Below are positions 29,524-39,591 of a DNA stretch of 64,000 nucleotides, one piece after another; the stretch's first letter is position 1, and the number at the start of each line of letters is the position of its first letter. The translations under genes were made by a program, and so were the position numbers. A model generated the notes under the pieces. The model saw only the letters and a list, made by a program, of their open reading frames with translations. It had not been told where the DNA came from and made no database searches. The stretch comes from Streptomyces sp. SKN60. Its GTDB lineage: Bacteria; Actinomycetota; Actinomycetes; Streptomycetales; Streptomycetaceae. The stretch lies in the NCBI RefSeq assembly GCF_026236535.1, contig NZ_JAHTMW010000010.1, positions 1-64,000 on the forward strand. The letters run 5' to 3'.

Positions 29524-29596
29524 GCGGACGTGGCTCAGTTGGTAGAGCATCACCTTGCCAAGGTGAGGGTCGCGAGTTCGAATCTCGTCGTCCGCT
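29524..29596 (+). tRNA. tRNA-Gly (anticodon GCC)
   Basis: A 73-base cloverleaf with acceptor GCGGACG/CGTCCGC, anticodon GCC in loop TTGCCAA, and T-loop TTCGAAT. CCA is not encoded. It is the first gene of a five-tRNA cluster. Confidence 0.97.
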
Positions 29597-29636
29597 CGAT
29601 GTGGGGGATCTTCCCGAACCCCCGAATCACACTCCT

Positions 29637-29710
29637 GGTGGAGTGGCCGAGAGGCGAGGCAACGGCCTGCAAAGCCGTCTACACGGGTTCAAATCCCGTC
29701 TCCACCTCCA
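29637..29710 (+). tRNA. tRNA-Cys (anticodon GCA)
   Basis: A cloverleaf with acceptor GGTGGAG/CTCCACC and anticodon GCA in loop CTGCAAA. The mature CCA end is encoded (29708-29710), unlike in the other tRNAs here. Confidence 0.96.
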
Positions 29711-29711
29711 A

Positions 29712-29783
29712 GGACGATTAGCTCAGCGGGAGAGCGCTTCCCTGACACGGAAGAGGTCACTGGTTCAATCCCAGTATCGTCCA
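29712..29783 (+). tRNA. tRNA-Val (anticodon GAC), copy 1
   Basis: 72 bases, acceptor GGACGAT/ATCGTCC, anticodon loop CTGACAC. It begins one base after the CCA of tRNA-Cys. It differs from copies 2 and 3 only in the acceptor stem. Confidence 0.97.
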
Positions 29784-29817
29784 CTGGACCTTCGGGTCCC
29801 GGATCTTCGGATCCCCC

Positions 29818-29889
29818 GCGCGATTAGCTCAGCGGGAGAGCGCTTCCCTGACACGGAAGAGGTCACTGGTTCAATCCCAGTATCGCGCA
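29818..29889 (+). tRNA. tRNA-Val (anticodon GAC), copy 2
   Basis: 72 bases, acceptor GCGCGAT/ATCGCGC, anticodon loop CTGACAC. It is identical to copy 3. Confidence 0.97.
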
Positions 29890-29923
29890 CTGGACCTTCG
29901 GTCCCGGACCTTCGGGTCGTCCC

Positions 29924-29995
29924 GCGCGATTAGCTCAGCGGGAGAGCGCTTCCCTGACACGGAAGAGGTCACTGGTTCAATCCCAGTATCGCGCA
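29924..29995 (+). tRNA. tRNA-Val (anticodon GAC), copy 3
   Basis: 72 bases, identical to copy 2. The spacers before copies 2 and 3 are also alike (both contain CTGGACCTTCGG and related short hairpins), so this is a recent tandem duplication. Confidence 0.97.
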
Positions 29996-34803: not shown

Positions 34804-36060
34804 TCAGTGGGTGGGCTTGGCGGTGGGGTTCTTGGCCGGGGACTCGTGGACCACGTCGCCGATGACGATGACCGCCGGCGGGCGCACGTCCTGCGCCGTG
34901 ACGGTCTCGGCGACCGTCGCCAGCGTCGCGTCCACCCGGCGCTGGGCGGCCGTCGTGCCCTCCTGGATCAGCGCCAGCGGGGTCTCCGGCGCCTTGCCGT
35001 TCGCCATCAGCGCCTCCGCGATCTTGCCGATCTTGTCGACGCCCATGAGGATGACGAGCGTTCCGGTGAGCCGCGCCAGCGACGCCCAGTCGACGAGCGA
35101 GCGCGGGTCGTCCGGCGCCACATGGCCGCTGACCACGGTGAACTCGTGGGCCACGCCCCGGTGGGTGACCGGGATGCCGGCCGCGCCGGGGACCGAGATC
35201 GAGCTGGAGATGCCCGGGACCACCGTGCAGGCGATGCCCTCGGCGGCCAGCGCCTGGGCCTCCTCCATGCCGCGGCCGAAGACGAACGGGTCGCCGCCCT
35301 TCAGGCGGACGACGGACTTCCCGGCCTTGGCGTGCTCGATCAGCGCGTTGTTGATGGCCTCCTGGGCCATGAACCGGCCGTACGGGATCTTCGCCGCGTC
35401 GATCACCTCGACGTGCGGGGGCAGCTCCGAGAGCAGGTCGCGCGGGCCGAGGCGGTCCGCGATCACCACGTCCGCCTCCGCGAGGAGGCGGCGGCCGCGG
35501 ACCGTGATCAGGTCCGGGTCGCCCGGGCCGCCGCCGACGAGCGCGACGAACGGGGTGCGGGCGCGCTGCGCCGGAGCCGCGATCGAACCGTCCCGCAGGC
35601 CCTCGACGATCGCGTCCCGCACGGCCGCCGAGCGGCGCGGGTCGCGGCCGGTGAGCACCGCGACCGTCACGCCCTCGCTGGCGCCCGTCGCCGGGGTCCA
35701 CGCGGTGGCCGCCTCGGCGTCGTCGGAGCGGACGCACCAGGTCTTCGTGCGCTCGGCCTCGGCGGAGATGGCGGCGTTCGCCGCCGGGTCGGTGGTGGCG
35801 ACCAGGGCGTACCAGGCGTCGGCGAGGTCGCCTTCCTCGTAGCGCCGCTTGATCCAGGTGATCTCGCCGGTCTCGGCCATCGCGTCCACGGACGGGGTCG
35901 CGGAGGGCGAGATCAGGGTCACCCGGGCGCCGGCCGCGATCAGGGCGGGCAGCCGGCGCTGGGCCACCTGGCCACCGCCGAACACGACGACGCGGCGGCC
36001 GGCGAGGCGCAGTCCGACGGGGTAGGCGGGGTGCTCGGCGGTGTCGGCGTGCTCGGCCAT
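34804..36060 (-). CDS. cobA: Fused siroheme synthase/uroporphyrinogen-III C-methyltransferase
   Basis: A 418-residue bifunctional enzyme. Residues 1-150 form the precorrin-2 dehydrogenase part with the NAD site VVVFGGGQVAQRR. Residues 165-410 form the SUMT domain (VALVGGGPGDPDLITVRG, VVRLKGGDPFVFGRG, GISSSISVPGAAGIPVTHRG). Together they methylate uroporphyrinogen III to precorrin-2 and can oxidise it toward sirohydrochlorin. It is shorter than CysG of enterics, and the ferrochelatase function is uncertain. GAGGAG lies about 10 bases before the ATG. It follows cobT across a 300-base gap holding a large structured element. Confidence 0.92.
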   Translation of the reverse strand: MAEHADTAEHPAYPVGLRLAGRRVVVFGGGQVAQRRLPALIAAGARVTLISPSATPSVDAMAETGEITWIKRRYEEGDLADAWYALVATTDPAANAAISAEAERTKTWCVRSDDAEAATAWTPATGASEGVTVAVLTGRDPRRSAAVRDAIVEGLRDGSIAAPAQRARTPFVALVGGGPGDPDLITVRGRRLLAEADVVIADRLGPRDLLSELPPHVEVIDAAKIPYGRFMAQEAINNALIEHAKAGKSVVRLKGGDPFVFGRGMEEAQALAAEGIACTVVPGISSSISVPGAAGIPVTHRGVAHEFTVVSGHVAPDDPRSLVDWASLARLTGTLVILMGVDKIGKIAEALMANGKAPETPLALIQEGTTAAQRRVDATLATVAETVTAQDVRPPAVIVIGDVVHESPAKNPTAKPTH

Positions 36061-36360
36061 GGTGCGGGCGGCTCCTCTGGAGGGGCGGTGCAGTGGGCAC
36101 CTCACGATATCGGTGACCTGCGGGTCTCTCGCTGTGATCGATGTCCCTCGCGTCGGTGGGAGGGTGCGTGCGGGCCGCGCGGGGTCCCGCATTCGGGACT
36201 GCATGATGTACGGCGCGGTCTGGTCCGACCAGCGCGGAACGTCCTTGTTCCGCGCCACACATCACGCTTTACGTCCCGAACGTCGGGACCCCGCACGTCC
36301 CCCACTCCCGCCGGATCTCCCGAAGGGACCCGGCTGAGGAGGGAGGGCGCGTGCGGCTTC
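36061..36360. other. Gap between cobT and cobA with a large folded element
   Basis: 300 bases without a gene. The part nearest cobA contains an AT-richer stretch (36106-36150) that may hold its promoter. The centre is the 112-base palindromic element described separately (36181-36292). Confidence 0.55.
36181..36292 (-). repeat. Long multi-stem palindromic element, possible structured RNA
   Basis: Nested complementary segments: GGGGTCCCG/CGGGACCCC (36181-36189, 36284-36292), TTCGGGAC/GTCCCGAA (36192-36199, 36273-36280), GCATGATGT/ACATCACGC (36201-36209, 36259-36267, one G-U), and GGCGCGG/CCGCGCC (36212-36218, 36250-36256). Inside are CTGGT/ACCAG (36220-36232) and a competing GCGCGGAAC/GTTCCGCGC (36232-36255). 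The alternative inner stems exclude each other. It lies upstream of cobA and downstream of cobT on their strand. Confidence 0.75.
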
Positions 36361-39300
36361 CTACTTCTCCGTGACGCCCGCCGAGTCGAACGTCGCCACC
36401 TCGTGCATCGCCCGCGCGGCGCTCTGGACCACCGGGAGGGCGAGCAGGGCGCCGGTGCCCTCGCCGAGGCGGAGGTCCAGGTCGACCAGGGGGCGCAGGC
36501 CCAGCTTGTTGAGGGCCGCGACGTGGCCCGGCTCGGCGCTGCGGTGGCCCGCGATGCAGGCCGCGAGGGACTCGGGCGCGATGGCGCGGGCGACGAGGGC
36601 CGCCGCGCCGGTGGAGACGCCGTCGAGGATGACCGGGGTACGGAGCGAGGACGCGCCCAGGATCAGGCCGACGAGCGCCGCGTGCTCCAGGCCGCCGATC
36701 GCCGCGAGGACGCCGATCGGGTCCGCCGGGTCCGGCTTGTGGAGGTCGAGCGCCCGGCGGACCACGTCCACCTTGCGGGCGTGCATCTCGTCGTTGATGC
36801 CCGTGCCGCGGCCGGTCACCTCGACCGGGTCCACGCCGGTGTAGACCGAGATGAGCGCGGCGGACGCGGTGGTGTTCGCGATGCCCATCTCACCGGTGAG
36901 CAGCGCCTTGTTGCCGGCCGCCACCAGGTCGCGGGCGGTCTCGATGCCGACCTCGATCGCGGCGATCGCCTCTTCGCGGGTCATCGCCTGGCCGATGGTG
37001 AAGTCGGCGGTGCCGGCCTTGACCTTGCGCGGGAGCAGACCGGGCGTGGAGGGCAGGTCGGAGGCGACGCCGACGTCGATGACGCAGACCTCGGCGCCCA
37101 CCTGGTTGGCGAAGGCGTTGCAGACCGCGCCGCCGCCGAGGAAGTTCGCGACCATCTGGCCGGTCACCTCCTGGGGCCAGGCGGTGACGCCCTGGGCGTG
37201 CACCCCGTGGTCGCCGGCGAAGATCGCGACGGCGGCCGGCTCGGGGATCGGCGGCGGGCAGACCCGGGAGAGGCCGCAGAGCTGCGCGGAGATGATCTCC
37301 AGCATGCCGAGCGCCCCGGCGGGCTTCGTCATGCGCTTCTGGCGCTCCCAGGCCTCGCCGAGCGCCTTGGCGTCCAGCGGGCGGATGTTGGCGACGGTCT
37401 CCTGGAGCAGGTCGTGCGGCTCCTCGCCGGGCAGCGCGCGGCGGCCGTACGTCTCCTCGTGGACGACCCAGGACAGCGGGCGGCGCTTGGACCAGCCCGC
37501 CTGCATCAGCTCGGGCTCCTCGGGGAACTCGTCGACGTAGCCGACGCAGAGGTACGCGACCACTTCGAGGTGCTCGGGCAGGCCGAGGGCGCGGACCATC
37601 TCGCGCTCGTCGAAGAAGCTGACCCAGCCGACGCCGAGGCCCTCGGCGCGGGCGGCGAGCCACAGGTTCTCGACGGCGAGCGCCGAGGAGTACGGGGCCA
37701 TCTGCGGCTGCGTGTAGCGGCCGAGGGTGTGCCGGCCGCCGCGGGTCGGGTCCGCGGTGACGACGATGTTCACCGGGGTGTCGAGGATGGCCTCGATCTT
37801 CAGTTCCTTGAACTGCTTCGCCCGGCCCTTGGGCAGCGACTTGGCGTACGCGTCGCGCTGGGTCTGGGCCAGCTCGTGCATCGTCCGGCGGGTCTCCGCG
37901 GACCGGATGACGACGAAGTCCCAGGGCTGCGAGTGGCCGACGGACGGGGCCGTGTGGGCCGCCTCAAGGACGCGGAGCAGGACCTCGTGCGGGATCGGGT
38001 CGGGGCGGAAGCCGTTGCGGATGTCGCGGCGCTCGCGCATCACGCGGAGTACGGCCTCGCGCTCGGCCTCGTCGTAACCGGGGGCGCGCTCGCCCGCCGG
38101 TTCCGTCCCGGCTGCTGTCTCGGGTGCCGTCTCGGCTACTGCTTCCGGGTCGGCCTGGGCCTCGGGCTCTGCCTCGGGCTCGGGGGCCGCGGAGGGCTCG
38201 ATCCCGGGCTCGGCGACGGGGGCGGGTACGGCCTCCGGCTCCGCCGGGGTCTCCGCGACCGGTTCGGGCTGGGGCGCGGGGGCCACCTCGGCCTCGACGA
38301 CGGGCTCGGCCGGGAGTTCGGGCTCCGCCGGGGGCTCCGCGACCGGCTGGGGGGCGACCTCGACCACGGGCTCGGGCTCGACGACGACCGGCGCCTCGGG
38401 CTGTGCCTCGGGGGCGTCCTCGGCCACGACGGGGATCTCCTCCGCCGCGACCTCGACGGGGGCCGGGGCCGGCTGCTCCTCGGGGACGACGGCCGGGGCC
38501 TCGGCCGCGACCGGCTCGACCACGATGGGCTCGGCGGGAGCCTCGACCGCGACCGGCGCCTCGGGCTGCGGCTCCGGTTCGGCCTCGCGCGGGGCGGGGA
38601 CCGGGGCCTCCTGGGCGACCGGCTCCGCGGCGGGCGGCTCGGCGGCCTGCGGTTCCACGACGACCGGCTCGGCGGCGGGTTCGGCGACGACGGGCTCGGC
38701 CACGGCCTGCGGCTGCTCCGGCTGCGCGTCCTGGACCGGGAGGACCGGCTCCGGGGCGGGCGTCGGGGCCAGGTGCGGGGCGGTCGGGACGGAGCCCTCG
38801 ACCGGGACGAACTGGACGGCCTGCGGGGCGACCTGCTCCGCCGGGGCGGGGGTCTGCGGCTCCTGGGGCTGCGCGGTCCACGGCACGGCGCCCTGCGGGG
38901 CCGTCTGCTGGTCCTGCGGCGGCACGTCCAGGTATTCGGGGCCGGTGGTCGGCGGGCCCGGGGTCCGGACCGGCATCGGCGTGGGCGCCGCGGCGGCGGC
39001 CGGGGCCGCGACGGGCGCGGGCTGCGCGGCGGGGGCGGCGGCCGGGCCGCGGTCGGCGAGGGAGCGCACCACGCCGCCGGTGGCGTCCGGCATCGGCGGG
39101 CCCATGTGCAGCGGGCGGCGCGCGGACTGCGGGGCCTGCGCGGGCGCCGGGGCGGGCATCCGGACGCCGCTCAGGTCGACGGAGCCGGAGTCGCGGCCGG
39201 CCGCCTCGTGGGCGCCGGTGTCGAGGATGCCGGGCTCGTAGCCGTGGTCGGTGAGGACCGGCTCGTGCGGCACGCCGTGCGCCGGGGTGGCCTGCGGGGG

Positions 39301-39591
39301 CACCGGAACGCCCTGCGGCGGGGTGGCGGTGACCTGCTCGATGGGGGCGGTCAGCGGATCGACGACCGGGCCCGGGGCGGGCACGGTGACCGGCGGCGCG
39401 GGCACCACGCCCGGCTGCAGCTCGCTCCAGGCGCCCTGGGCGCCCGGCATCAGCAGTACCTCGTCGTCCTCGGCTGCGTTCTCGGAGGGGTCCAGGTAGG
39501 CGTACGCGCCCGGGGCGGGGATGCCCGGCTGCTCGCCCGTGCCTGCGTTCTCCGGCAGCCCCTCAGCCGGGACCTGGCCGGTGTCCGTCAT
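36361..39591 (-). CDS. cobT: BluB-CobT fusion with long disordered N-terminus
   Basis: A 1076-residue protein in three parts. Residues 1-500 are Pro/Ala/Glu/Val-rich, repetitive and disordered. Residues 505-725 are a nitroreductase-fold BluB-like domain (RRDIRNGFRPDPIPHEVL, SQPWDFVVIR), the flavin enzyme that cleaves FMN to dimethylbenzimidazole. Residues 729-1076 are CobT, which transfers phosphoribose from nicotinate mononucleotide to dimethylbenzimidazole, with FAGDHGVHAQGV, TGEMGIANTT and the catalytic Glu1044 in RLGEGTGA. One polypeptide thus makes and activates the lower ligand of B12. It lies upstream of cobA on the same strand. Confidence 0.93.
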   Translation of the reverse strand: MTDTGQVPAEGLPENAGTGEQPGIPAPGAYAYLDPSENAAEDDEVLLMPGAQGAWSELQPGVVPAPPVTVPAPGPVVDPLTAPIEQVTATPPQGVPVPPQATPAHGVPHEPVLTDHGYEPGILDTGAHEAAGRDSGSVDLSGVRMPAPAPAQAPQSARRPLHMGPPMPDATGGVVRSLADRGPAAAPAAQPAPVAAPAAAAAPTPMPVRTPGPPTTGPEYLDVPPQDQQTAPQGAVPWTAQPQEPQTPAPAEQVAPQAVQFVPVEGSVPTAPHLAPTPAPEPVLPVQDAQPEQPQAVAEPVVAEPAAEPVVVEPQAAEPPAAEPVAQEAPVPAPREAEPEPQPEAPVAVEAPAEPIVVEPVAAEAPAVVPEEQPAPAPVEVAAEEIPVVAEDAPEAQPEAPVVVEPEPVVEVAPQPVAEPPAEPELPAEPVVEAEVAPAPQPEPVAETPAEPEAVPAPVAEPGIEPSAAPEPEAEPEAQADPEAVAETAPETAAGTEPAGERAPGYDEAEREAVLRVMRERRDIRNGFRPDPIPHEVLLRVLEAAHTAPSVGHSQPWDFVVIRSAETRRTMHELAQTQRDAYAKSLPKGRAKQFKELKIEAILDTPVNIVVTADPTRGGRHTLGRYTQPQMAPYSSALAVENLWLAARAEGLGVGWVSFFDEREMVRALGLPEHLEVVAYLCVGYVDEFPEEPELMQAGWSKRRPLSWVVHEETYGRRALPGEEPHDLLQETVANIRPLDAKALGEAWERQKRMTKPAGALGMLEIISAQLCGLSRVCPPPIPEPAAVAIFAGDHGVHAQGVTAWPQEVTGQMVANFLGGGAVCNAFANQVGAEVCVIDVGVASDLPSTPGLLPRKVKAGTADFTIGQAMTREEAIAAIEVGIETARDLVAAGNKALLTGEMGIANTTASAALISVYTGVDPVEVTGRGTGINDEMHARKVDVVRRALDLHKPDPADPIGVLAAIGGLEHAALVGLILGASSLRTPVILDGVSTGAAALVARAIAPESLAACIAGHRSAEPGHVAALNKLGLRPLVDLDLRLGEGTGALLALPVVQSAARAMHEVATFDSAGVTEK

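Follow-up and report, generated by a model that had tools for sequence, protein, structure and literature searches.

A copy between cobT and cobA represents an apparently undescribed family of dispersed palindromic repeats in Streptomyces

Introduction

A 300-base gap in the DNA of Streptomyces sp. SKN60 separates the stop of a nitroreductase-cobT fusion gene from the start of cobA, both encoded on the minus strand, and contains a densely folded element. What is this element, and does it belong to the cob genes that flank it? A preliminary description of the window, by which we mean the whole stretch of 64,000 nucleotides that was analysed, offered three answers: a new riboswitch or attenuator of tetrapyrrole synthesis, an unusual terminator, or a MITE-like remnant. 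As judged from sequence comparison, the element is one copy of an apparently undescribed Streptomyces family of dispersed imperfect palindromes of ~145 nt.

Results

Fold and parts of the window element

Positions 36181-36292 fold as RNA with an energy of -66.0 kcal/mol on the plus strand (z -6.26) and -77.7 kcal/mol on the minus strand (z -10.05), and 0 of 200 shuffled sequences folded equally well on either strand. The dense fold that was described at the outset is thus real, and the arms named for it were all found: GGGGTCCCG/CGGGACCCC, TTCGGGAC/GTCCCGAA, GCATGATGT/ACATCACGC (one A.C mismatch on the plus strand), GGCGCGG/CCGCGCC and GCGCGGAAC/GTTCCGCGC. The minus strand, on which the element folds better, is the strand of the cob genes. 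The pairing runs outward beyond 36181-36292, to approximately 36162-36306, which corrects the earlier extent. Gene calls from a codon-position script, together with Pfam domains, bear out the location between cobT and cobA on their strand. The features of the locus are as follows.

36361..39591, minus strand: flanking gene encoding a nitroreductase domain and a CobT-type phosphoribosyltransferase (Pfam PF00881, PF02277)
36162..36306, minus strand: whole palindromic repeat, ~145 nt, with approximate ends (alignment with 36 other copies; inverted repeats 36168-36189/36284-36305; fold)
36293..36306, minus strand: 5' outer arm AGTGGGGGACGTGC (inverted repeats, alignment; outer helix 1 of the covariation analysis)
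36273..36292, minus strand: 5' inner arm, which reads GGGGTCCCGACGTTCGGGAC on the minus strand (partner of 36181-36199; helices 2 and 3 covary)
36268..36272, minus strand: conserved GTAAA side of an asymmetric internal loop, with a single A (36200) opposite (alignment of copies)
36250..36267, minus strand: 5' strand of the core helix, GCGTGATGTGTGGCGCGG (in 4 of 4 own copies with small changes; two near-constant G.U pairs)
36219..36249, minus strand: variable, unconserved tip that contains the alternative hairpin of the preliminary description (tip identity between genomes at unrelated loci; hairpin incomplete in the other own copies)
36201..36218, minus strand: 3' strand of the core helix, CCGCGCCGTACATCATGC (own copies; covariation table)
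36181..36199, minus strand: 3' inner arm (inverted repeats; covariation)
36162..36180, minus strand: 3' outer arm (inverted repeats, alignment)
36105..36165, minus strand: 3' tail on the folding strand, mildly C-rich in the window copy (base composition: C 0.38, G 0.26, T 0.10)
36103..36115, no strand assigned: CACGATATCGGTG block between the element and cobA, with a putative promoter role (14 of 30 cob gaps, element present or absent)
34804..36060, minus strand: flanking gene of the siroheme synthase/SUMT type (cobA/cysG; Pfam PF13241, PF00590)

The cobT fusion (36361-39591, minus strand) begins with a P-, A- and E-rich stretch of ~500 residues, which is followed by the nitroreductase domain, which we take to be BluB-like, and the CobT domain. 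At the gathering cut-off, Rfam matched tRNAs only in the window, with no cobalamin riboswitch or other family; five clustered tRNA genes lie at 29524-29995 on the plus strand. At relaxed thresholds, the best match of another copy (L002) was MIR1858 (31.8 bits versus a cut-off of 137), and those of the window were mir-2576 (21.9 versus 83) and sbcD (19.8 versus 40).

The preliminary description noted a competition between GGCGCGG/CCGCGCC and GCGCGGAAC/GTTCCGCGC. Both alternatives exist in the window copy, but the competition is confined to its tip. Among the four own copies, only that of the window has both halves of the alternative hairpin; two of the others contain neither half and one contains a single half.

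Copies and distribution of the repeat family

A search for further copies, which the preliminary description had named as a check, revealed three more in the window's own genome at the DNA level (77-82% identity; four in total) and many across Streptomyces. The three additional own copies are all oriented like the window's minus strand and all lie between convergent open frames, and in one case (L003) the upstream frame ends with a stop codon inside the element. On the minus strand, the four copies read GGGAC-GTAAA-GCGTGATTTGTGGCGC, a free tip of ~35 nt and GCGCCGTAAATCATGCA-GTCCC, apart from a few differences. The arms outside this core vary between the own copies, and their complementarity is kept.

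At E 0.001, a covariance model (R1) built from 14 copies, including the four own ones, has matches in 34 of the 199 Streptomyces genomes searched; matches below ~60 bits were not individually inspected, and some in this search are the opposite strand of the same copy. The model matches 29 of 197 genomes, in one of six genera, in an order-wide draw and 2 of 296 genomes, in one of 114 genera, in a class-wide draw; this draw and that of the genus are samples. Because no more than 19 candidates were scored in any genome (13 in the class-wide draw), copy numbers are lower bounds. All 97 record titles among the matches listed in a named-genome scan are Streptomyces. An exact core pattern detects at least 32 copies in genome G173 and 4 in the own genome, gives 0 matches across the nine genomes when reversed as a control, and misses three of the nine genomes that match R1. 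Phage and plasmid collections searched with the window copy by distant blastn gave no match.

At least 101 copies were chosen by the exact core pattern, and the conservation of the core among them is by construction, while arms, tip, tail and position lie outside the pattern. The 101 copies represent 97 loci and ~31 genomes unevenly, and counts from them are not independent. Copies were used where their flanks sufficed, namely 90 for the fold, 81 for tandem orientation, 78 gaps for position, 93 for identity and 88 for the tail; Streptomyces sp. NBC_00249 contributes 24 of the 93 copies in the identity analysis, L-9-10 contributes 11 and AcH 505 contributes 10. Several copies are located at contig ends.

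Related arrangements were recognized by eye. Two repeat subtypes of Streptomyces sp. L-9-10 form inverted pairs around a related spacer, once reversed, and make up a larger composite unit (L088 2084-2556, L147 5032-5445 and L163 3353-3672). A short variant in L073, L074 and L075, near 1501-1551, keeps the outer arm and GTAAAGCG and has lost the inner hairpin. A sister subtype with the core GTGTATTTGTGGCGCC and other arms is found in L066, L068, L069 and L072, near 1501-1612, from genomes G096, G165, G055 and G180.

Covariation and the folded strand

Is the fold itself maintained? Copies were aligned in 37 rows, each from a different genome so far as names and handles distinguish them. Two-sided changes occur in 24 of 44 pairs and 131 cells, compared with means of 11.8 and 47.9 after shuffling, and none of 500 shuffles reached the observed values. 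A control in which the partner was slid gives 5-16 pairs and 11-35 cells. Covariation extends to 12 of the 13 pairs of the inner arm. The structure used (A3) is the fold of one row (L099), and its three poor pairs (columns 27-169, 65-134 and 82-116) are unpaired in 14, 9 and 26 of the 37 rows, respectively. Between genomes at unrelated loci, identity is 0.53 in the tip and 0.70 in the arms. The compensatory changes by which the preliminary description wished to be judged are therefore abundant, but they sit across copies at unrelated loci and thus show a kept fold, not a cob-linked fold.

The arms contain 39 G.U and 4 A.C oppositions (30 versus 3 in the inner arm and 9 versus 1 in the outer arm) and 68 other mismatches; G.U occurs in at least one row at 13 of the 27 arm pairs, and A.C at 4. 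This excess of G.U over A.C indicates that one strand is the folded strand. The fold energy is lower on the cobT-cobA strand type in 86 of 90 copies, partly because the core contains two G.U pairs that are near-constant. The strand of cobT-cobA is thus folded and selected, whether as RNA or as single-stranded DNA.

Occupancy of the cobT-cobA gap

We compared 30 cobT-cobA loci, the own locus and the best 29 of 288 matching genomes. The model detects the full element in six of them (own, L174-L178) and not in the other 24, among which, by eye, L179 is half decayed and L181-L183 hold apparent arm remnants, and the remaining loci show no convincing match to the model (L200: 17.5 bits, E 0.15). Copies also occupy the cob gap of S. 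bikiniensis (L086), CB02009 (L141) and ISL-36 (L156) in the window's orientation and that of TBY4 (L098) and G074 (L254) in the opposite orientation; the cob gap of G060 (L041) carries the element by eye.

The CACGATATCGGTG block is present in 14 of the 30 loci, comprising the six with the element and eight without the full element, and may belong to the cobA promoter. A sigma-70 scan found nothing. If the block is a promoter, the element lies upstream of it, which would fit a cobT 3' end or insulator and not a switch in the cobA leader. At 36103-36145 of the window, a dyad like GTCACGCTGTGAC accompanies CACGATATCGGTG in 8 of 30 loci, possibly as a promoter together with a regulator site.

Genomic placement and the 3' tail

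None of the 101 copies is inside a called gene, though 82% of the loci were called coding. Copy-bearing gaps are tandem in 37 cases, convergent in 32 and divergent in 9 (n=78), compared with 72, 11 and 74 among copy-free gaps of at least 150 bases; convergent gaps are thus enriched (odds ratio 9.2, p 9e-10) and divergent gaps depleted (0.15, p 2e-8). Among copies in tandem gaps, 22 have the folding strand in sense orientation relative to the neighbouring genes and 17 in antisense. In 23 of 33 convergent gaps, the element lies closer to the stop that faces its 3' end (p 0.035).

On the folding strand, the 60 nt 3' of the element have mean contents of C 0.51, G 0.27 and T 0.05 in 88 copies; this 60-nt segment begins 36 nt past the core and may overlap the outer arm by a few bases. 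The C-G difference of the tail is 0.238, versus 0.014 after 313 ordinary stops (p 7e-27), and on the other side of the element it is 0.027, which does not differ from the control. The skew of the tail declines from 0.32 to ~0.1 across 300 nt, and the tail folds weakly (-17.8 versus -25.4 kcal/mol). RNA that is C-rich, G-poor and open loads Rho. On average, the 88 tails are C-rich, G-poor and weakly folded in this manner; that of the window copy is so only mildly.

The element is not a canonical intrinsic terminator, because no T-run follows the stem: behind 89 copies there are at most 4 T per 8 nt on the folding strand and at most 5 on the other, and a search of 36000-36450 returned 0 terminator-like sites.

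Homogeneity, orientation and decay

Within a genome, the arms of two copies are 0.93 identical (421 pairs). At orthologous loci the value is 0.85 for copies with the same orientation (23 pairs) and 0.81 for copies with opposite orientations (15 pairs), and it is 0.70 otherwise (3819 pairs). Copies thus appear closer to others in their genome than to those at their locus, a pattern that recent spread or gene conversion would leave, with the qualification that the compared species are unequally close. Orthologous copies of close species have identical arms and an altered tip (L096/L130, arms 1.00 and tip 0.87; L099/L142, 1.00 and 0.82).

A convergent gap behind an ABC-type gene exemplifies these dynamics. 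We read 17 sequences, of which 11 have the same second gene (72-94% identical to that of L096); a different gene comes next in the other six, which are hence not the same gap. The element lies one way in L096, L285, L286 and L287 (a loose script test flagged both orientations in L285, and its sequence has that of L096) and the opposite way, with similar arms and tail, in L288 and L289. L291 and L296 retain the tail and one arm alone. Both come from genomes, G270 and G249, whose cobT-cobA copies also look like remnants by eye (L179, L183). L295, L298 and L307 are empty, and in L307, the own genome, the stops are 14 bases apart. The turned copies may reflect inversion in place or a second insertion, and either fits the sequences. 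Among the six sequences with another gene, L290 (G291) shows an apparent outer arm where the gene order changes, a possible rearrangement at the palindrome.

At the gap of the own copy L004, the element is absent from G004 and G015, and the remaining sequence has diverged too far for its ends to be placed. Neither a target-site duplication nor an exact junction was obtained at this gap or the ABC-gene gap, and no TA was seen by eye at the element ends in the genomes inspected. Y1_Tnp, the only transposase family searched for, is absent from G173, G074, G089, G060 and G018 and is found in 8 of 25 genomes that match the model versus 6 of 25 that do not, which is no association. A replication-strand bias was considered and rejected as a general trait: 15 of 18 copies on contig C1 of G074 point toward the origin, but 12 of 28 do so in five other genomes (G098 3/9, G375 3/6, G404 5/8, G389 0/3 and G038 1/2). 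These counts were made by hand with dnaA as the reference, and those for G375 and G404 cover the matches listed.

Discussion

Relation to known repeats

Bacteria harbour several classes of dispersed palindromes. ERIC (IRU/RU-1) of enterobacteria is described as a 127-bp dispersed intergenic imperfect palindrome that forms one long stem-loop, is thought to be mobile and is reported to change mRNA stability depending on its orientation (PMC2229807, PMC2267715). NEMIS/Correia elements of Neisseria are described as dispersed inverted-repeat elements of ~107-158 bp whose transcripts are RNase III substrates, and both ERIC and NEMIS hairpins alter neighbouring mRNA (PMC2229807). The Streptomyces repeat, like ERIC an imperfect palindrome, resembles ERIC and NEMIS in its numerous dispersed copies, which lie between genes and form a long stem-loop. 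It differs from ERIC in its host, in its compensated arms that differ between genomes and in its C-rich tail; ERIC has TA ends and a target duplication, whereas the repeat has G-rich and C-rich ends, and no duplication was obtained. NEMIS has short terminal repeats and a TA duplication, neither of which is evident in the repeat.

REP/BIME palindromes associated with RAYT favour unidirectional and convergent gaps, form inverted pairs and contain frequent G-T pairs, according to PMC3733652. The repeat shares these three properties. REPs are 20-40 bp long with GTAG/CGTC tags, in contrast to the ~145 nt of the repeat, which does not co-occur with a Y1 transposase. Within Streptomyces, PMC8269248 describes structured U-less transcript 3' ends of S. 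clavuligerus that have a very stable stem and no U-run, and PMC4681348 describes short transcripts at palindromes in 3' UTRs of S. coelicolor; the U-less ends are a functional class, whereas the element is a repeat family.

Six core 16-mers had no occurrence in the literature searched, and neither this literature nor the Rfam release yielded a Streptomyces repeat family of this ERIC-like kind. In surveys of repeats or stem-loops, the word Streptomyces is absent from PMC12306157, PMC3733652 and PMC2267715 and appears in PMC1590033 in a reference title only. We regard the family as a dispersed palindromic intergenic repeat, which its genome-specific covarying arms, strand specificity and C-rich tail may set apart as a variant.

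Function and spread

What does such a repeat do between cobT and cobA? On the basis of sequence comparison, we consider it likely that the element is a non-autonomous repeat of the ERIC/NEMIS type that moves or undergoes gene conversion. Its hairpin and tail probably terminate transcripts or insulate them. The last alternative of the preliminary description, a MITE-like element, comes close to the data. A trans-acting activity that recognizes the folded strand would spread or homogenize the copies. When transcribed, the hairpin and the C-rich, weakly folded tail would constitute a portable 3'-end or insulating signal, acting through Rho-type termination with hairpin protection or through RNase III cutting. 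In the cobT-cobA gap, the element would keep the cobT transcript apart from the cobA promoter and would sense no metabolite; it is probably not a B12 sensor. Against this explanation it counts that neither a target-site duplication nor an exact junction was obtained, that the presence of Y1 transposases does not follow that of the repeat, that the tail of the window copy is only mildly C-rich and that three copies of one species pair up at the cob gap in stable orientation, which old vertical inheritance also fits. The 22 sense and 17 antisense tandem copies and the nine in divergent gaps argue against a simple terminator role.

A tetrapyrrole-responsive riboswitch or attenuator within the cobA leader, toggling between two helices, would account for the place upstream of cobA on the same strand, for orthologous elements in the cobT-cobA gaps of several other species and for the two alternative helices of the window copy. 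Such a switch is nonetheless highly improbable: most of the many dispersed copies are unlinked to cob genes, an outcome that the preliminary description had named as refuting it, the full element is missing from 24 of 30 cob gaps, TBY4 and G074 hold an opposite-orientation copy in the same gap, a conserved block intervenes between element and cobA, the alternative helix is unconserved (complete in one of four own copies), and Rfam gave no riboswitch match at the gathering or relaxed cut-off. Could the hairpins instead be a fixed, non-mobile terminator or 3'-end family selected locus by locus? This is unlikely, given that homogeneity within genomes and opposite orientations in one gap are unexpected for fixed sites, that termination needs no long conserved core and that a T-run is absent, with at most 4 T per 8 nt behind 89 copies; the enrichment in convergent gaps, the compensation that keeps the stem and the orthologues with identical arms and a changed tip (L096/L130, L099/L142) would be compatible with it.

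Strand-specific pairing, with G.T pairs, also fits single-stranded DNA. A model in which the hairpin is selected as DNA, through binding of a strand-specific transposase or nucleoid protein, and any effect on RNA is incidental would also accommodate the inverted pairs with related spacer that were seen by eye in L-9-10 and the 15 of 18 copies that point toward the origin in G074. This alternative is quite unlikely, as Y1_Tnp is not associated with the repeat (8/25 versus 6/25), the origin bias is missing in five other genomes (12/28), and the gene-end position and C-rich tail suggest transcripts. A bolder version of the preferred reading, in which a mobile or gene-converting repeat ends or insulates transcripts, can be offered as a doubtful conjecture: a mobile, invertible palindrome would travel or be copied as one folded strand through an enzyme outside the known Y1 transposases and carry its own transcript-ending module of hairpin and Rho-loading tail, and its arms would be rewritten in step in each genome with the fold kept, such that each lineage would have its own dialect of a shared core.

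With as many as tens of 145-nt hairpins, almost identical to one another, in a single genome, the repeat would influence where transcripts end and how far they read through between neighbouring genes. They would also break draft assemblies and mislead searches for riboswitches, as happened with the window element. One core with genome-specific covarying arms, copies turned both ways in a single gap and decay in some lineages would make spread without a known transposase directly testable in Streptomyces.
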